Under the pieces are notes generated by a model. The model saw only the letters and a program-made list of their open reading frames with translations, ran no database searches and had not been told where the DNA came from. A DNA stretch of 64,000 bases from NCBI GenBank assembly GCA_905221615.1, contig CAJNDT010000602.1, positions 617,444 through 681,443 on the forward strand, read 5' to 3'. The DNA is from Symbiodinium sp. CCMP2592 (taxonomy: Eukaryota > Sar > Dinophyceae > Suessiales > Symbiodiniaceae). The first letter of the stretch is position 1. Each line of letters opens with the position of its first letter. A program made the translations under genes and the position numbers. Positions 34,993-47,600 of this stretch are shown in pieces.

Positions 34993-37110
34993 TAAAATAC
35001 TACCATACGATCACCAGGAGCTCTTTCTGACTGCGGATGGTGGGTTGCATGATTTTGGGGCACCGGAAACGATCCTCACCACGGCGAAGACATGTTCTTG
35101 CTCCAAAGTCCCCATGTGTACCGCGTGGTGTGGATACTGATGCACAAGCATGATCCTCCCCGGCATCAGCATTACAGCCAACAAGAACATCATCAACACA
35201 AAACGGCTACCAATTCTTCATACGTTCTTCTGCACAATAAACCTTCTTGCTGACATCATCACGAACAGCTGCAATGCAACCCTAATGTCGCTTGCATTCG
35301 CCCGCTGCTGATGTGCCCCTTGTTGTTGTAGGCGGCCTTGTGCCTACTTTACTGCTCTTGCTCCTGCCTGTGTGGATGTCGCCGCCTTCCTCAGCTACAA
35401 GCATGACTGCGATCATTGCGAACTGAACAACCTCAACCCCTAAACCCTAGGATTGCTGTGTCGCACCTCTCCGAGGAGTGCGTGGTGCTTAAACCGGAAC
35501 TCTGCGAAGGCTCCACACCTCACAAGGCGCATGAAAGCGGTTCAGGGTTCAGAGCACACCGAGTGAGATCTACAGCCGAGCTGGCCAGATAAGGTCAGAA
35601 AGCAGGAGGGACGCGAGTTTCGCCTGTCTGCGATGAGCCAAGCCGCACATCCACGACGTCCTTCCCGCTCATGAACTTTACCTGAGCATGGGACGCTTGG
35701 CAACCGACGGATACCACAGGCTGCATCTGGAGCAAACTTCCCAAACTCCAAAGCTCCAGACTCTAGCCATGACTCCAAAGCCCCGAACTCGCCGCCAACC
35801 CCTCTCGGTGAGTGGCATTTCGTGCCAAGTGGGGCGCAGCCACACCGAAGAGACGCTGGTGGTCGATACCGGCCTCGTCGAAGGGCTTCATATCTATTAC
35901 TCGGGGTTTCTGATTTAATTGGTTGTCGTTCTTCTCGTGATGACGACGACTACGATTCACTATTATCTATGAGTATCGTTCTCATTTGTTGTCCGCATGC
36001 TACGCACCAGGCTGGTAAGGATGTTTCCCGGAAGTGACAATTTACACTACTAGCAATCAAATACTCACATTTGCCAGAAGTACCAATAACAACCAGCATA
36101 ACCACCATTACCACGATTACAATACAGTAGCAGTAACAATGATTGGGTCTAGGGGCTTTAAGCTTGGGTACCTTGAGGGTGCGTCCTAAGTCTTTAGCAC
36201 CAAGTTTAAGCTTGAGCCCTCTCAAGGCCCACAGCAATAAGAGCGCTCCAAAACGCAAAGGGGTTTAGGGGGTTTGGGCTGTTTTAGTGTACAAGGTGTT
36301 CTGCTCCGACTTGTTTCCATTTGCACAGCAGCTTCAACTAGACTGGACCAGATTCAAGCACATCGAGGTTTAGGCAAATCGAAACCCAACCCTGCAACGT
36401 TAAAGCAAAATCAACGACACGGCCAACAGGAAACAAAGCAAAGCCAACCTCTTCTTCCTAACATCGAGTTTTGTCCAAGAGCAAACAACTTGGCTTCGTT
36501 CACTTTAAAGCTGGCCAATCGATGCGGGTGACCCTACAAGAAGCCCTAAATTCTTCCTTCGGTTGGGCCGTGCCTCCGCTGCTGCTGTCACCAGCATCCT
36601 TGCCATGGTTGGCTCTTCGAGTTTCGGGCTTTACTTTGGGAGCTCAAACACTGCCCTCAATGTGATTTTCGGGCCTAAACTAATATGGGTCTCTTGGGGT
36701 TTAGGGCCTACACTATGTAGGGCCTAAGTCTAGGTTGTAGGGTGTGCGTTTAGCACGTGATGTCGGGCTTTGGGACTTTGAAGAGATTATTTAGGCTAAA
36801 AGCGGGCAGAAAAGTTTAAAGACGCAGGGCCAACTGCGGACTCAGCTGCCTTGTCCAAGGCCCAAGCATCCCAGAAAGCCTAGCGCTGCCCCACGTGCCC
36901 TAAACCGTAAACCCTTGGGCCCTGAGTCCAAATCTGAACAACCACTGAAGACCGTTACTCTCAGAAGGAAAATGCCACATCTTGATACATACTTTCCAAG
37001 AGCTTCCAAGTGATGTGTTTTTGGGCCCAGGGACAGAAAACAGGTCATTTCGCACGGAGCACATCTAAGGGATGTCCTATCCTGTATAGTTCATACATAT
37101 GAAACGATGT
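34993..37110. other. Gene-poor stretch left of the LINE
   Basis: No gene is supported. A minus-strand frame at 35011-35199 begins with a hydrophobic stretch (MMFLLAVMLMPGRIMLV), but exon limits and family are unknown. Telomere-like words occur at 36255-36270 and 36690-36745. Confidence 0.4.
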
Positions 37111-37142
37111 ATGTTGTGCTATATATATATATACACACATAT

Positions 37143-37173
<31 letters not shown>

Positions 37174-37332
37174 ATACATGTATACATATGTATATATGTA
37201 TATATATATATATATGTATGTATATTAACATATATATATGTATGCATATATATGTATGTATATGTATATATACGTTTATATGTGTATATGTATATGTATG
37301 TATATATATATATATGTGTATGTATGTGTATA

Positions 37333-37373
<41 letters not shown>

Positions 37374-37432
37374 GTATATGTATATGTATATATATATATA
37401 TATGTATATATGCATATATATATATATATACG
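37111..37432. repeat. TA/TATG microsatellite, about 320 bp
   Basis: Nearly pure TATA, TATG and TACA tetranucleotides. Long Tyr/Ile frames open on both strands are repeat artefacts. Confidence 0.92.
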
Positions 37433-37738
37433 AACAGCTACAGCTGTCTGTGATTCCAGATGGTGATGAGGAGTCTGGGATCGAGGCATGCCACATGATT
37501 ATATATTGGAGTTAAGGCGATATGAAACATGGAAAATTAAAGAGTCATGCTGGAGTGGTCTCCGGTGCAGCAGGCTTAGGCTCCAGGGCGTCTCGGCTTC
37601 GGGCTTCAGACACGCTGTCATTTTTGGTACTCGCAAAGCTCACGGCTCGCAGCTCTCGGACAGCCAGCACACACAGGAATGCCAGGCATACCGCTGAGGA
37701 CAGGTTTTGCCCAGCACAGCAGGGTGACATGTGACGGC

Positions 37739-37754
37739 CAGCCTCGGATCCATG
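37739..37754. repeat. Left target-site duplication of the LINE
   Basis: CAGCCTCGGATCCATG is repeated exactly at 44553-44568, directly after the LINE's (CAA)6 tail. The flanking bases on the outer sides differ, as expected for a duplication made at insertion. Confidence 0.9.
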
Positions 37755-37779
37755 CTGCCAACGAGCTCTTCACCTCCAC

Positions 37780-40700
37780 GTGGGGGCAGCGGGATCCGGC
37801 GACCGGCGCTGGATAGCGAACGAAGAGCTGTGGAGATTTAGGAACTCTGCCCCGAAGTTCCAAGGAGCATCTTATGACTCAGGCAATGGCCCATGCAGGC
37901 CAGATCTTATGATGAGGCGCCCGGCGGCATCTTATGCACAGTGCCATGTTGGGATGCATTTTTCTGTTGTTCAGTGCTGTGAAGCGAGTGATGTTCAGCA
38001 GTGGCGATTGTGGCCACTGATTCAGAGGGCGAGCCACTTTGTGCGAGGGTGTCCGAAGAGACGGCCTCGCTGGGGCTATCGTGGCTGCCGAGTGGGAGAA
38101 GCCAAGCACCCAGGTCCGGCAGGATCGCGCCGTACTGCTAGGGGCCGGCAGGAGCGAATGGAAAGGTTAGTCGGCTTTGCTGGAGTCCGCGTAGGCGAAG
38201 CAAAGCACCCGGGCCCTCTTGAAGGCCCTCAGCTCGCAATGATTATGAGTTTGTTGCAGACTCTTGTGCAATTGCTCGGGCAACTTGCTGGTGGCCAGAC
38301 TAGTGCCATCGATGCTTCATTGTCGGAGGCGAGCAATGCGATCGCAAAACTAGGCCAGCCTCAGAAGGACACTGCCCCGAGCCGGCAGGTGCAACTTGAG
38401 GCCACGGAGGAGGATGAGTGGCAGCAGCCCCGACGGCGTCGTAAGAAACGTGCTGTTGAGGCTCAGGCAGTGGCTGCTTCGACCCCTGCTAGGCCAAGTG
38501 CTCCAGCGGGGAAAGGGATGCATCAGCTGCCTGGCAAGGGCCAAGGCTAGGCATCCGGTCCTGACACGAAGGGCAAGGGCAAAGGCAAGGGCTCCGGGCC
38601 CATGCTTGTTTCAGTGCCCCCTGTCATGGTTGGTGGTGGTGCTCTGCGTGCTGATGATTGGCACGGCAAGCTCCTTTCTTTTGAGGACCTCGGTGACTAC
38701 AGTGCTGCTGGGGAGAGTGTGGTGGTTGGGGTCCGTGACTCGTCACAGGCCTCCATTGCGCAGGCGATGATTCGTGGAGCCGAGCTTAAGTCCTCCTTCC
38801 TGATTGTTCATCCGGACCCTGAGGGCAAGCAGAAGGCTCCTTACTGGCAAGGCGCGACGGTGACCATGCGGCCTGTTGCGAGCTGCCAGGTGCCACATGG
38901 AACAGTGCCCCTCCCGATCTTGAAGGGCAAGAAGGCGGCGAAGACCATCACGACGGAGGCCTCGGTGGTGGTCAGGGTCATTGTTGCAAGGGACTTTTGC
39001 TCACGATCCGAGTGGCTCGCTGCCAAGAAGGGCTACCGTGCTTTTGTGACGGGCAAGTTGGGACTCATGGACGCCTGGGGTGCCGCTGAGGAGGCACGAT
39101 TGGGCGAGACCATTGTGGGGCTGGCGCGGGCCAGGGCCGCCAATCTGGCGGTGCTGCTTGGCAAGTCTGGGCATGATGGGCTCTTCATTGAGCCGGTTGG
39201 CAAGGAGGCGACTGGGCCCAACTACGGCGTCACTTGGATCGACAAGGAGGATGCCGAGGAGGCCGGTGACTACTTCAAGCGGGTCATTGCACTCAAGCCC
39301 AAGCATGGTGTGGTGCTTGGGCGGCGGCAGTTGGGCACCAGAGCGGAGGTGGAGCTCGAGAAGCAGTCCAGAGCTTGGCGGCTTACCGGAGCCCCCAAGC
39401 ATTGGGGCACCGACGCTGTCACTGAGGTGCTGGAGGGTGCGGGCTACAAGGAGATCGCTTTGTCATCGCGGCTTTTCCGACGAGGGCAGTGCATTTGGTT
39501 CTTTCGAGCCATGGCCAAGGATGAGTTCTGTCTCATCCCGGTCCAGGAGGGCAAGGAGGAGCTCGAGCTGTACGTGCTTCCGGCTGCGAGTCCTCGGGGA
39601 CAGGTGGGGCGCAAACCATTGCGCGAAGAGCGCACTCAGCAGTTTGCCAAAGAGCGCTTCAGCACCACGTTGGGTGCTCCTCGTGGCGAGTTGGAGGAGG
39701 GGGCTGACGGCAAGCAGCATCCTGAGGGCAAGCGCCGAGTTCAGGAAGTGCGCGAGCTGCCTCAGGGCACCGTGCTCAAAGAGCAGCCTCGCGACGGAAA
39801 CTGTCTGGCGCACTGCATCGGCGTTGGCCTCACCTGGGCCAAAGGTGATGACAAGCGCCGACCGGCGCGCCTTATCCGCGCCGAGCTGCACAACTATATG
39901 CGGGAGAAGAAAGATCAGTTCGCTGCATGGTGGGATGGCCGCGATTGTGGTGATAAGCCTGCTACTTACACCAGTTTCGAGGAGTACCTGGAGGAGATGA
40001 AGGGCGATGGCAAGTACCTTGGTTGTCTTGAAATTGAGGCTGCTTGCTTGGCTTTCGACTGCACCATCACGGTCATCCCGGTTGCCGCTGAGCAGGTGCC
40101 AACACGACACGGGAGCGGCAGGCATGCCTTCTGCCTTTGGTACTCTGGCAGCCACTACGACCTGTTGCTGCCCACCGCCGCTGCCTACCCGTCGGCCGTG
40201 AACTCTGTGCAGAGCTTTGGCAGCAAAAGCGGAGGCCGAGGAGGAGGTCCCAGTGACGCTGAAGATGATGAGGAGCTCGACGCACTCACCATTTATACGA
40301 ATGCCACTGGTGGAGGACGGAAGCCGCGACCCAAGCGGCCAAGGCTTCAAGAGTTGCCGGCGGCTTCGAGTGCGGCTGGTGACGACACTGCGCCGGACAT
40401 CCGAAAGTGGTTTGGGCCTGCGGGCGGTCGTGTTGGCCCTGACGCTTGCTCGGCGGCTTCGCGTGCCAGGCAGCTTGACAGAGTCGAGGCTGGTGAAGGG
40501 CTCGCTGGCGAGGAGGACACCGAGAAGGGCACGCACGCCTACCTCGACGACGTCGACGACAACCTCGACGAGCTCCACCAGGCCTCCGTCGCCGTTAAGA
40601 AGGGAGCCCGAAACTTTTGGGTTTGTAGGGAGTGCGGCTACGACACCGGCAAGCACCCGCAATGGCACAAGCGGAAACACGCTCACATTGCTGCTTGCCA

Positions 40701-41631
40701 TCCTGAACTTGCCAAACAGATGGATGAGAGAGCCAACCGCAGAGCCACTTTCGTCCCTTACAGTGAGGCTTGCTGTTGGCGGTGTCCTGCGCCGCAGTGT
40801 GGGCTTGGGCTCCTTGCGAACGAGGCCACGCCTAAGCAGAGGCAGACGGCGAGACTGAACCATGGAAAAGAGGCTCACCCTGAGCTCGACCAGTCACTTT
40901 TCCACAACCAGTCCAAATCTGCTGGGAATGCTCGGAAGGCCACCGTCGCGAAGCGCAACTTGGGTGTTGCGCGCCGCATCCAACGCCTCGCTGATGCTGC
41001 TGAGGCTGGTCATGATGCGGTGTGGCTTGCGTGGCCTGCTGCGCCGCCTAAGGGCCCGCGCAAGAAAGATGTCAAGAATGTTCTGGTACACAAGGTCTAC
41101 TGCAAGACCTGCAAGCAGACCGCGAACCAGCCGAGCGAGCTTGCAAAGAAGGAGTGCCAAGAGGGCTTCGAGGGGCCCAAGCGAGGAAAGTTGGTGGCAC
41201 GGCTTCGTGCTGAGGTGGACGCAGGCACACACAACGAGGAGCTGCATGCTGCTGCGCAGAGGACTCTCGAGATCCTCGGGGCTGACCATGAGGCTGCCAA
41301 GCGTGAGCGTGCTGATGGTGGAGAGCACAATGTTGACATGTGGGCTTGGCCTGGTGGCGCGGTTCGCTATGTCTGCAACAAGTGCCGTTTCGTTGCTAAC
41401 AGTGTTGAGGGCTTTAGCAAGAAGTGCGAGGGGCGCGTCGCTGTCCGCAGGCGCACCAAGGAGATCGAGAGCCTCCGGGAGTTCGCCTCTGGCAAGGGCG
41501 CCGCGCATGATCAGAGGGCTGCCGTTCGCATCCTTGACTACCTGGGCCTCGAGGCGCATCCGAAGGAGGACGCTGGCCGTGAGGCTCTCGCCAAGGGCCT
41601 TCAGGGTGGCGTCGCAGACGGGCAGCCATGA
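37780..41631 (+). CDS. LINE ORF1: GEAKHPGP motifs, OTU-type cysteine protease, zinc fingers (one in-frame TAG)
   Basis: One reading frame runs from the element's 5' end to TGA 41631, interrupted only by TAG at 38548-38550. The first ATG in frame is at 37909 and the first after the TAG is 38602 (1009 codons). Order: two copies of RVGEAKHPGP (near 38086 and 38188), a hydrophobic stretch, and a KGKGKG linker around the TAG. Then comes an OTU-like domain with DGNC (Cys codon 39802) and SGSHYDLLL (His codon 40153), the two expected catalytic residues. Then follow a C2H2 finger (C-x2-C-x10-H-x3-H, 40624-40680) and two WxWP...CxxC modules near 41030-41160 and 41341-41435. The family's ORF1 products are RNA-binding partners of ORF2; the protease could process a polyprotein or remove ubiquitin, which is inference. 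Continuous GC-rich coding spans both sides of the TAG, so the stop is a recent mutation or a readthrough site. Confidence 0.85.
38086..38220 (+). other. Duplicated GEAKHPGP motif in ORF1
   Basis: CRVGEAKHPGP and VRVGEAKHPGP occur about 34 residues apart. The PGP ending recalls 2A-type ribosome-skipping peptides, which end NPGP and occur at the N-termini of some LINE proteins. The upstream D-x-E-x-N residues needed by classical 2A are not present, so skipping is a guess. Confidence 0.6.
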
Positions 41632-44374
41632 CTCAGGCTGGCCACGCGCTGCGGGTGGGCACTATGAATGTTCGCACGTGTTCTGGGCGCATGGCTGCAA
41701 TCGTTGATGCGGCCAGAAGGGATGATGTCAACATTCTTTGCATTCAGGAATCTCGCATCATGCCAGATGCTGTCAAGGGCCTGCACTCTACGTGTCGCGC
41801 TCTGGGCTTTCGGTTGGAGGTTGGTCCTCAGGACGAGCATGGTGGCGTTGCTGTGCTATCGGACCATCCGGTCGCACGCGTGGCCATTCCTAGCTTCTTG
41901 GAATTTGGCCGCAGAGTCATGGCGGTCCAAGTGTCTCGTCCGGGCATGCGGCCGCTCATGTTGGTGAATGTCTACGTGCACGCGAACGACAAGCAACTGG
42001 GCACCCACTTGCTGCAGTCCGTCTTTGAGTGGCTTCGTTCTACTGGCGAGGACTACGTGGTCTTGGGCGATTACAACAGAGAACCCGAGGAGTTTCCCCT
42101 GGGTGGCATGATGGCAGTTGGCGCTGTATTTCCCATGAACACCGCCTTTGTTCATGAGAGTGGCACGCATCGTAACGCCGACGGGGAGCTCACCGGTGTC
42201 CACCTGGATTACGGCATCGCTTCTCCTCGCGTTCAGATTGGCTGCAGATACCAAGGCCCTCCCGTCGCTGACCATGATCTGGTGTCCTACGACTTGCCGC
42301 AGGGCCTTCCGACCGAGCAGTGGAGGTGGCAGCCGCGTGTGGGTCTGGACCTTGGGCGCGGCGAGACGTGGCATGATGTGTGGCCCCAGTTCCAGCTCAA
42401 CTTCGAGTCCGCTCTTTCTGAAGACGACACAGAGAGCGCATGGCGTGCATTGTCTGCTTCAGCTGAGGAGGCCTTGCGTGCTGAGGGTGCTCGTGCCGCT
42501 CCTCCTCGGGGCATTCCGGGCAGACCTGTTAGGGAGCAGCCTATCAGGCTCAAGCTGCCGTGCTTCCAGACTTTGCTGGAGCGTCAGCTTCGTCGCCTTG
42601 CTAGGAGGGTCTACGAGTTCACGCGGTTCCCGAACGCCGTTCTAGAGACCAAGTTGGTGAACACCAGGGCTTCGTGGCCTCAAGTTGCTCGTGACACCTG
42701 TGAGGGCAAACCCTGGCCTGAGGTTGCTGCGACACTCACCAATCTCGCCAACGAGGAGGCAGCTCGAGCAAAGGCGACTCGGATCGCTAAGTGGAAGGAG
42801 GAGATTCAAGAGGACCTCCCTCGCATGGCTCGCTGGATTTCGCAGAGGATCGACGACAACCGCATCGAGCTGCAGGACTTCTCCAAGGACCCTGACCCAC
42901 AGTGTCAGGCTGAGAGGTTGGCTGCGTCCCTAAACTCGCTTTGGGACCCTGCCAAGCGGCCTCCGTTGGAGGCTCTCGACCAACTGTTGTCTGAGTTTCA
43001 GGCTCCGGCTGGACCTCAAGGTGCTCTCACTCTCACAGGGCACGCGCTCTTTCGACGTGCTAAGGCTAGCCGCAGGCGGGCTGGTGGTGCAGATGGGTGG
43101 CAAGGCAGCCACTGGGCTGCGCTGCCTGAGCAGTGGTTTGAGCACCTTGCTCAGATCTGGAATCGGGTCTTGGGTGGCGCTTCGCTGCCTGCCGCGTGGG
43201 CCTCTGTTCGAGTTGCGGCCCTGCCCAAAGAAGGTGGTGACTACAGGCCCTTAGCTTTGGCAAGTTTGGCTTGGCGGCTTGGCTCTTCTTGCTTGTTAAG
43301 GCAACTTCGTGCATGGTTCGCTGGCTGGCTCCCTGCGCAGCTGTTGGGTGGTGTACCTGGCCGTTCGGCCGACCAGGGGCACGCTGTCCTTGCCGCTGAA
43401 CTGCGCTGCAAGTCAACTCCGGCTGCTCGGTTGGCTGGCTGCAAAGCGGACGTTCGCAAGTTCTTTGACACTTTGAGTCCCGAGATCGCCATCAGAGTCT
43501 TTGAGCACTGCAATGCTCCGCCGGAGGTGGTTCGCCTGTTGCGCTCCTTTTATTTGCACCAACAGCGGTGGGTTGCTGTCCAGGGCCGCTTTCACAAGGA
43601 AGCGCTGCAGACTGGCTCCTTGCTGCAGGGCTGTCCGTGGAGCCCAGTGTTGGCTAACTGCTGCATGGCTTTGTGGGTGGCACAGGTTACGACCGCTGCA
43701 CCGTCTGTCCAGGTGCAAGTTTTTCTGGACGACCGCACTTTGCTTGCCCGCAGCCGCGATCCTGTCACTGATCTTCTCCGTGCTCACAGGGCGGGCAGTG
43801 TGGTTGACAATGCGCTGGGCCTTTCTTTGCACAAGGGCAAAAGCGAGAGCTTTGGTGGTGACCAGACTGTGCGGGAGGAGTTGCTCGAGTTCGCCGACGA
43901 CATTGGCGTTCCGCAGGTCGAGTTCAAGTTTCTTGGGGTTCGCTACCGTACAGAGGGCGGCCAAGTCTTCACGGAGGCGTTGCTCACTGAAGAGCTTAAG
44001 GAAAGGGGGCGACGCATTCGCTTGCTTTGCCATGGAGTTCGTTCGCGCTGCCGGCTCGCCGCCATCATGATTGTGGCTAAGTTTCGCTACATGCTGGGAT
44101 GGATGAGGTTTAGCAAGGCCACGCTCACTACTTGGACGAGCCTCATCGAGAAAACAGTTTGGGGCAGGGCCACGCCTGTGGGTCGGTCTGCTACACGCGG
44201 CACTTGGTTCGGTTTGCTGGGTGGATCGAGGGCATCAAGTCTCAGCGTGCTCAGGCCATTAAGTGGAGTACCGCGGCGCTGCAGCGACAATTTGATGTGA
44301 CCGCTGATTTTGATGAGTTGCACAAGCAACTTTTGGCTGAGAAACGCCGCGCGAGAGAGGAACTGTCCTCATGA
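41628..44374 (+). CDS. LINE ORF2: APE endonuclease and reverse transcriptase (frameshifted near the end)
   Basis: It starts at ATG 41628, overlapping the ORF1 stop as ATGA. The endonuclease occupies about residues 8-220: GTMNVRT (Asn14), CIQES (Glu41), GDYN (Asp148, Asn150) and ADHD (His216), the catalytic set of this nuclease. A linker of about 300 residues is followed by the reverse transcriptase: ALPKEGGDYRPLAL, motif A ADVRKFFDTL (Asp608), motif B GSLLQGCPWSP, motif C FLDD (Asp701/702), then GLSLHKGKSESFG and FLGVRYR. The enzyme nicks target DNA and primes cDNA from the nick. The uninterrupted frame stops at 44300 (890 codons), but a missing G in the GGG at 44219-44221 would explain the switch to the frame that ends naturally at 44374 (IEGIKSQRAQAIKWSTAALQ). 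The catalytic core is intact. An antisense 471-codon frame at 39463-40878 is a shadow of ORF1. Confidence 0.93.
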
Positions 44375-44534
44375 TTCGCGTGTGAGAAGAGCGGTTTGCG
44401 ATGGTTTTCTGGACCTGCCATGTTCGTGCCATTTTTTTCTGCAATTTTCTGGCCACATGGACGTGAGAGTGCCTTTCGGGGACGTTGATGCGCCTTATCC
44501 GTGCCACTCCGTGCTAGGGTGACATGGTCCTCTT

Positions 44535-44568
44535 CAACAACAACAACAACAACAGCCTCGGATCCATG
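44535..44568. repeat. (CAA)6 LINE tail and right target-site duplication
   Basis: Six CAA units (44535-44552) end the element. They are followed at once by CAGCCTCGGATCCATG (44553-44568), identical to the left duplication at 37739-37754. Confidence 0.88.
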
Positions 44569-44671: not shown

Positions 44672-47600
44672 TCAAGGCTTGAAAAGAGATGCAGCTTCTC
44701 GTCGGAATATCCAGATCGAGCTGTGTTCTCCTTCTACATGCGTCCTGTTGAAGCGCGAGGGCTGCTCATGACCGATAGAGGCAACAACAAATTCATCCGA
44801 AATCGCATCCCCTCCACCAGCGAGGAGGCTTGCAAGTGGCTGGGTTTGGCCTAGGTCGGGCAAAGCTGCAGCCTCGCTTCCCGCATTCTCGTCTGCCAGA
44901 GGTTCCCAGGCTAAGCTGAAATCCTCCAGCTGCAGCACAGCTGGTGGCGCAGCCAACAATGATCGAAGCTGGTGCAGGGCAGACAGCTTGAATTTCATGG
45001 TAATGAACATCCCCCGCTGCACCACCTTTCTCAGATCTTGAAGGGCCAAGCTTTTCCGAAGTGATTCCGATCCTGCAGGCACGTCAACTGGGTCCTGTGC
45101 AATCGGAAGCGCACGCTGCGACACGGACCGTTGTGGCACCGCCACTGGAAGTTCCAGGGAATACTTGCAGTAGGGATCATCGTGGTATATCATCCGGAAT
45201 TCCATATCCTTCTGTTTGCCGGTATCCAATCGCAGCCACCCACTCTTCAACATCATGTCCGCATCAAACCCCAAAGCCTGAGCAGCGGCACGACCATTTG
45301 ACACACCATCCATGATCGATGCCAGCTCCAGTGCATCGTCAGGACGGGCACAAAGGTGCGCCCTGATCTCAAGGAGGCGATGGGACAGGCTCGTATACGC
45401 AGCAGAATGATGAGGAGCATGTTGGGAGGCCTTCTTCGTGCGAGCATGCTGAGCCTCCACTCTCCAGGCTGAGGCGAACATGAGGCGGAGCTCGGCGGCC
45501 TGCACTTTCAGAGGCAGCAAAACATCGCTGTCATCCCAGAGTCCGCCCCCCTCGACGAAAGCATGCAAAGCATCCATGTGGTCCCGGAGCTTCATGATCC
45601 GCGGGTGGCTGCAATTTGAACTGAGGCACTTCTGCAGGCATTTCACACGGACCTTTGGATTACGGTGAGCCAAACCGGCCAGGACATGTGGGGGCTCTTG
45701 CCAAAAGCTCAACTTCAGCACATAGGTGGTCACGATGCGCCTTCTTGCAACCTCAAAATCCTGCATAAGGCCCCGTACCTGGACGTCTGTCAAGCCTCTG
45801 GGTAGCGAGACTTCAAGACGGCTGGCACTTGCATCAACAAGAGACTGGATCAAGTGAAAAGAGTCTCTTGAAGCTAGCTCAGCACACCGTCTACCTCTGA
45901 GCGGACACAAGCACACTAAGGTTTTCAACTCTGGAAGATCCGAGTCCTGCCACTGCTCGTGGCAGGGACACCCACTCACAAACCGCACAGGCACAGCCTG
46001 GCGTTGCACAATGGCCACTTGAAGAAGAACCTTGATGGAGCCCCAGAAAAACGGTGATGATACACCTTCGTCCGCGGCTTTCAAATTGACACCCAAATCA
46101 CCCTCTGCTGTATCACCAGGTCTGGCATTCGGGACCGATTCGTGACTGGCATGCTTGGACCCCAAGAAGCGACCCAGATTCCAATGCATCCTCAATGCAC
46201 CCTCAAGTTCGTGGATCTCTTCTATGGCTGCTGCAACAGTGCTCCATCGTTTCTCGTGAGGAACGACTTCAAAAGACTGAATCATGTCCATGTATGCAAG
46301 CGCCGGTCCATGACTGAAACACGTTTCAATGACCTGTTGCTTAGTCTCTCGCCCTGCAAGCAATGAGCAAATGGCCTTCAAGGAAACCATCATTTCTGAA
46401 TAACAGCTCAGAACATCCTCCAAGTTTGCAGTGACATTGTGAATGACGTGCATCATGCCCGGCCCCTCGAGGCTGTGTGAGAAATCAACAGTCTCAACCT
46501 CGGCAGCAGTCGCATCGGCTAAAGCTGGTTGGTCGGAGACCTGAAAACAATCCTCCTCAGTGGCTGCTGCTGGCACGACAAACATCTCCTCCTGCTCTAG
46601 CCTGGTTTCCATCGCCTTGCAATGTAGGTAGGGGGGCAACATGACCTCCAGACTGACCTTATCCACCCGGGAGAAAGACTTCTCCGTCCCGTAGCCAGTG
46701 TGAATACTGACAATGGAATGGCAAAGTTCTGCTAGGGATGACCGGCTATCCACAAGAAGTGCCAGGGTGTGCAGAAAGACACGCAGCTTCGCAGGAAGAT
46801 TCGTTCGGGAATGTGCCAACATGATGATGGGCGCGACATGCCAGGTGAAAACACTTGACAACGTTCGCAGCATCATCGCACCCTCTGTGTGTCTCTGATC
46901 GGCTCTGTCCTCATCACTCCTGGAGGTGAGGCGGCCCAGCTGCACCAAGTCCTGCAAAAGCAAAGTGATAGCAAGTGAGCTCGCTTGGAAGAAGTTTGAC
47001 TGCTGGCTCTCAGATTCAGATCACGCTCGAAATCATTTTGCGATGAATCTGCACAAGCATCGCCTGTTTTGAGACTGGCCGTTGCAAAATGCACGGCCAG
47101 GCCATGAAGGCTCTGAAGAGCAAGATGAAAGGCAGTCGGCGGCTCGATTGGCCGATTGGCATCAGCAGTGCGATTCAGCAGGCACCCGGTTCCCAGTGAA
47201 CAGGCAACAACACCAGAGTTATGAGTTAAGTAGCTGCTGGTGGCACGGGCCGAATGTTACAGCGTAGCTGTTTGTTTTTTGACACTGACCAAAACAGCCT
47301 GAGACAGCCGCCTTGCTCACTGGGCTCGCGAGGCCAGGAGGCTGAAGCCCTCTCACATCCTTTTGCTGGACTCCAGGAAGTTGCAAGAAGTGGCCAACAC
47401 GCTGGCACTCGTCCCCGTCCTTGCCCGTATCGATGCCAGCCCAGCCGCCTCCGCCTCCGTCTCCACCGCCCGGGCCAGGGCTGGCCAAGCCCCTCCGAGA
47501 GGGAACTCCTGAGGAACCCTGGGCCCCACTGTGACGGCGTTGCTTCTTCAGAGGCGCGGCGGCGGTTGCGGGATCATTCTGCAACGGCTGCTCTCTTGCC

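Follow-up and report, generated by a model that had tools for sequence, protein, structure and literature searches.

An APE-type LINE and its insertion site

The feature studied here lies in a 64,000-nucleotide stretch of the genome of Symbiodinium sp. CCMP2592 (the window) and is an APE-type LINE in a dinoflagellate genome, now internally deleted. Its parts are listed in Table 1. The order of an APE endonuclease and then a reverse transcriptase (RT) (PF03372, PF00078), together with a target-site duplication and a 3' tail, identifies it as an APE-type non-LTR retrotransposon, and no LTRs were found by reading of the element. The endonuclease and RT motifs, described as intact in a sequence-only reading of this DNA, are so in the Pfam matches and in the FLDD catalytic box. 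PDB entries give only weak sequence matches. In a sister copy, C4983, the end of ORF1 and the start of ORF2 fall on the same residues as here.

Table 1. Features of the LINE copy and of its insertion site (window positions)
Feature	Positions	Strand	Basis
Left copy of 16-bp target-site duplication	37739..37754	+	exact match; 16-mer at 3 places in genome
LINE copy bounded by the duplication	37755..44552	+	first 340 bp single-copy
First GEAKHPGP (2A-like) peptide, RV before	38095..38118	+	sequence
Second GEAKHPGP peptide, RV before, 99 bp on	38194..38217	+	sequence
In-frame TAG interrupting ORF1	38548..38550	+	frame reading
ORF1 after the TAG, 1026 codons	38551..41631	+	open reading frame
OTU-like cysteine protease domain in ORF1	39790..40104	+	PF02338, E 5e-11
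Cys/His-rich, finger-like segments in ORF1 (approximate limits)	40614..41440	+	by eye; no Pfam match
ATGA overlap of ORF2 start and ORF1 stop	41628..41631	+	sister copy with same layout
ORF2 as present; end out of the sister's frame after deletion	41628..44300	+	frames, sister comparison
APE-type endonuclease domain	41661..42107	+	PF03372, E 1.5e-11
Reverse transcriptase domain	43224..43943	+	PF00078, E 2.8e-17
RT catalytic box FLDD	43722-43733	+	read in RT domain
Stretch with the junction of the ~1.06-kb deletion, which removed knuckle and RNase H	44167..44218	+	alignment to sister; RNase H profile
3' end common to two other copies (90-92%)	44490..44548	+	sequence match
(CAA)6 tail	44535..44552	+	exact
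Right copy of 16-bp target-site duplication	44553..44568	+	exact match

The perfect duplication reported by the sequence-only reading was confirmed: CAGCCTCGGATCCATG is exact at both flanks, and the window contains no further match even with 2 mismatches (0.07 expected). In the whole 1,098-Mb assembly this 16-mer occurs at 3 places only, the two flanks and C4667:151418, and the latter has flanks unrelated to the LINE insertion site; the 16-mer is therefore not a common repeat of the genome, and no exact pre-insertion site (GTGACGGC-CAGCCTCGGATCCATG-GAATGG, as expected from the LINE flanks) is found in the same assembly. The tail is indeed CAA and not poly-A, and other copies ending in (CAA)n exist, since (CAA)3 or longer follows ORF2 in 8 of 20 relatives, with three types of 3' end; for the other 12, mostly about 250 bp or less of sequence was available after ORF2. 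Both ends had been placed at base precision. The duplication is exact on the two sides, but it is the sole marker of the 5' boundary, since the first 340 bp of the LINE, used as a query, matched nothing but the element itself. In the sister copy, comparison of the 3' flank with the first 3.5 kb upstream showed no repeat of more than 9 bp.

Around the insertion, a long microsatellite-like stretch rich in AT is found a short way upstream (window ~37100-37440), and an open frame of 782 codons with no Pfam match (44672-47020, minus strand) ends about 100 bp past the insertion. The dinoflagellate spliced-leader 21-mer has 429 exact matches in the genome, and its reversed control has 0, which marks the genome as that of a dinoflagellate.

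The missing module and the relatives of the element

The copy cannot be called complete, as it had been, because a module of about 1.06 kb is missing with a change of frame and because ORF1 contains an in-frame TAG. The size of the deletion is deduced from the DNA alignment to the sister copy, in which the segment following the RT (between ~44167 and ~44218 of the window) is present and encodes a CCHC-like zinc knuckle and an RNase H. The RNase H module is visible by eye in 21 of the 22 relatives' frames listed, and a profile of 12 aligned members, picked for a visible module and including the sister, matches solved RNase H (best E 7.8e-6). Pfam detects no RNase H in the ORF2 of seven relatives nor in the C-terminal stretch of the sister, and PF00075 matches one of the 12 aligned members. 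An intact autonomous copy, with a full ORF1 and an ORF2 that includes zinc knuckle and RNase H, is thus not what the window holds; the sister has a lesion of its own, FLGD in place of FLDD. It is very improbable that the locus is a complete, recent LINE and nothing more: the perfect duplication, the clean CAA tail and the open endonuclease and RT frames are in keeping with such a copy, but the loss of the module and the TAG are not.

That the insertion is recent, as also proposed, is unproven, in view of the distance to the nearest copy given below and of the lack of an empty site in the same genome. Two unchanged 16-bp copies would limit the divergence since insertion only to less than about 9% (exp(-32d)=0.05), and frames that are still nearly open speak for a young insertion, provided that the lesions came later. 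Among the 54 matches listed in the ORF2 search (51 of 2215 candidates scored), C4983 comes nearest, with 84% protein identity, and the rest are at 43% or less. At the DNA level, window positions 40396-44167 (3.8 kb) are 81% identical to C4983, with dS 0.73-0.99, so that no recent burst of the subfamily is visible. With dN at 0.027-0.134, these values indicate that both copies descend from elements under purifying selection. The similarity to C4983 rises abruptly at window ~40396: in the N-terminal part of ORF1, over the first 380 codons from the second GEAKHPGP peptide, 37% of residues are common to both and synonymous sites are saturated, which suggests a mosaic origin of the window LINE. Distant ORF2 relatives (27% identity) recur on C929, C1449, C2662, C1855 and C2740, mostly ~11.3-11.7 kb apart, as if a LINE were part of a tandemly repeated unit on these contigs.

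The GEAKHPGP peptides and related motifs in the genome

Ahead of ORF1, and in frame with it, lies a leader that ends in the two tandem GEAKHPGP peptides. It has at most ~62 residues if the first in-frame Met within the element is taken as its start. Between the two peptides 5 of 8 codons differ and 0 of 8 residues. The viral StopGo (2A) core is described as (D/G/C/N)(V/I)ExNPGP, with His at p16 as an active variant (above 95%) (PMC12846837). Both window peptides have Gly at p12, one of the four residues allowed there (Asp, Gly, Cys or Asn) and the one fixed in our genome search pattern, as well as His at p16 and Pro-Gly-Pro at p17-p19, but Glu-Ala in place of Val/Ile at p13 and Glu at p14.

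The motif is abundant and is conserved as a peptide. A back-translated search for GEAx[N/H]PGP gives 724 genome matches versus 3 for the reversed pattern, and R(V/I) directly precedes it in 532 of the 724 (control 0). Among the 100 matches listed, there are 92 distinct DNA strings, the third base of the first Gly codon is nearly uniform (28/26/24/22), and p16 is His in 51 and Asn in 49. Freeing p16 raises the count by 144 to 868, with 116 for the control, so that residues other than Asn and His are near background at this position. When p19 is freed (831 matches, 724 with Pro; control 38) or p14 is freed (877; control 77), a modest excess of other residues over the control is kept, therefore neither of these positions is absolute.

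The frames are open for 110-753 codons downstream of the motif in the 17 instances examined. Among seven relatives of the LINE with the upstream part examined (L034-L040), the motif stands before ORF1 in five and was not found in L035 and L040. In the first ten genome loci (L041-L050), an endonuclease directly follows it in L042 (by eye), L047 and L048 (Pfam); L041, L043, L044, L045 and L049 gave no Pfam match. On C348, one stop-free frame runs from 160 codons before a GEASNPGP through ORF1 and a GEATHPGP to the endonuclease, while C63 has two GEA motifs 4.3 kb apart, in different frames and with stops between them. The frame upstream of the motif appears hydrophobic in L037, L049 and L086, like N-terminal 2A signal sequences, by qualitative inspection.

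The genome also carries canonical 2A sites, with 91 matches to the pattern (p16 Asn or His) versus 6 for the control. Four loci were examined. In two, L051 and L052, the canonical motif directly precedes a LINE endonuclease; in the other two, L053 (C113:976331) and L054 (C216:264602), DVEPNPGP and DIERNPGP precede a stretch that resembles a tyrosine recombinase by eye (that of L053 has no Pfam match), perhaps in DIRS-like elements. Used as a query, the L051 endonuclease gave 109 matches. Of these, 33 begin next to a canonical motif, and of the 91 canonical motifs, 36 lie at starts of such matches. We read 31 further endonuclease starts, a part of these matches chosen for having no canonical-pattern match beside them: 15 are canonical-type, 14 GEA-type and 2 neither, the first class being wider than the search pattern (His at p14, His or Gln at p16) and the second also (Phe at p12, Leu at p16, in L058, L059 and L069). 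Grouping by identical core and next eight residues leaves 11 canonical-type, 8 GEA-type and 1 neither. One of the 31, L082, belongs to a family in which GEA had been seen before, and nine loci chosen on other grounds (L076, L085-L091, L094) are left out of the count. GEA and canonical motifs thus occupy a common boundary.

Both types also occur in tandem, with two or three copies of the GEA motif in the window and in L058, L059, L085, L086 and L087, and two copies of the canonical motif in L063, L088, L089 and L090; in both, residues are kept while codons have changed. Viral-type upstream hexapeptides are present at the canonical-type sites of L055, L056, L062, L063, L064, L070, L073 and L081. 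At the endonuclease starts of L073, L081 and L090, the canonical-type sequence has Gln at p16 (DVEAQPGP, GIERQPGP).

On an endonuclease tree of 26 rows, each type clusters, with 2 changes each for GEA and canonical, the window family lies beside three GEA rows (100/99), and a single GEA clade is not rejected (p-AU 0.286). Repeated exchange between the two types therefore finds no support in the tree, and the exchange may have occurred only once or twice.

A putative non-canonical StopGo signal

We propose, with a probability of about 0.75, that R(V/I)GEAx(N/H)PGP serves as a StopGo (2A-like) signal of a non-canonical kind. The motif is not classed as canonical 2A because p13 and p14 do not match, though p12 Gly, p16 Asn/His and PGP do; most likely it works like one. 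In the proposed sequence of events, the LINE would have been inserted by target-primed reverse transcription and deleted internally afterwards. During translation of such an element, the motif would act in the ribosome exit tunnel and cause skipping of the last Gly-Pro bond; the leader would be set free, and translation would continue to give an ORF1 protein beginning with Pro. In the window family, termination at the ATGA overlap followed by reinitiation would give access to ORF2. In related families that have ORF1 and endonuclease-RT in one frame, the two would be separated by whichever motif stands at the boundary, GEA or canonical 2A.

The GEA motif resembles canonical StopGo in its p12 Gly, free p15, p16 Asn/His and PGP, in its tandem occurrence, and in its presence at the same endonuclease boundary as the canonical sites of this genome. 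It differs by Glu at p13 and Ala at p14 in place of Val/Ile and Glu, and by an upstream context of R(V/I) instead of the viral hexapeptide classes; skipping by the GEA motif is putative. Upstream hexapeptides such as RDLTxE and DLTxDG are described as important for viral StopGo, and E14 of F2A as stacking on rRNA (PMC12846837). The broken (V/I)E core counts against a StopGo function, as does the absence of any motif at 2 of the 31 endonuclease boundaries and in two of the seven relatives. The same holds for the tolerance of other residues at p14 and p19, for the two C63 motifs lying in separate frames, and for the clustering of the two types on the endonuclease tree.

The same departure at p13 and p14 would suit a linear motif of another use, in binding, localisation or as a structural turn, with PGP at its end by chance, and many copies precede ORF1 and not an endonuclease. 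We consider this doubtful, and the least probable of the functions weighed here, since the motif exchanges with canonical 2A at endonuclease starts, shares its tandem habit and is restricted at p16 in the same way. Scarcely more probable, and still unlikely, is a post-translational processing site cut without ribosome skipping by the OTU-like protease of the element or by a host protease. The OTU-like domain matched by Pfam in ORF1, a similar stretch seen by eye in the C348 ORF1 and a boundary position suited to the cutting of a polyprotein would all fit such a site. However, known OTU proteases cut after Gly-Gly tails, and the near-exclusive Asn or His before PGP and the use of canonical 2A at the same boundary are what a StopGo signal predicts.

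Among transposable elements, the window LINE is like the APE-type LINEs with RNase H in its target-site duplication and short-repeat tail, and its relatives run endonuclease, RT, zinc knuckle and RNase H; it differs by the OTU-like protease in ORF1, the CAA tail and the loss of knuckle and RNase H. A 2A-like sequence at the N-terminus of a non-LTR retrotransposon has a precedent in L1Tc of trypanosomes. PMC4981915 describes such sequences, and N-terminal 2A-like signals, for non-LTR retrotransposons and sea urchin NLR proteins; the GEA motif likewise follows a short leader close to the start of a LINE protein, but unlike the canonical cores described there, its core is different, often in tandem, and present in ~700 copies in this one genome. 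In the papers searched, we found no report with GEAKNPGP, GEASNPGP, GEAKHPGP or GEASHPGP, although an earlier report of the class may exist, and no link between 2A-like or NPGP sequences and dinoflagellate retrotransposons, which the available text of a review (PMC5009743) does not join.

StopGo is described as only rarely used in cellular genes, and its core was defined from RNA viruses (PMC12846837). With 91 canonical and 724 GEA-type matches, and with both types represented at homologous retroelement boundaries, this one dinoflagellate genome amounts to a natural mutagenesis of the signal, which makes the core residues needed by the ribosome directly testable, and GEA peptides may yield new short co-expression linkers. 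StopGo at GEA sites would account for the great length of the fused frames that some LINEs have in this genome. Whether dinoflagellates have a StopGo code of their own, in which GEAx(N/H)PGP, with about 8 times the canonical matches in the genome, is dominant, replaces canonical 2A where ORF1 meets the endonuclease and is efficiently read by dinoflagellate ribosomes, is in our view an evenly balanced question; such a code, if true, would suggest that the exit tunnel is tuned differently, as two positions of the viral core are broken.
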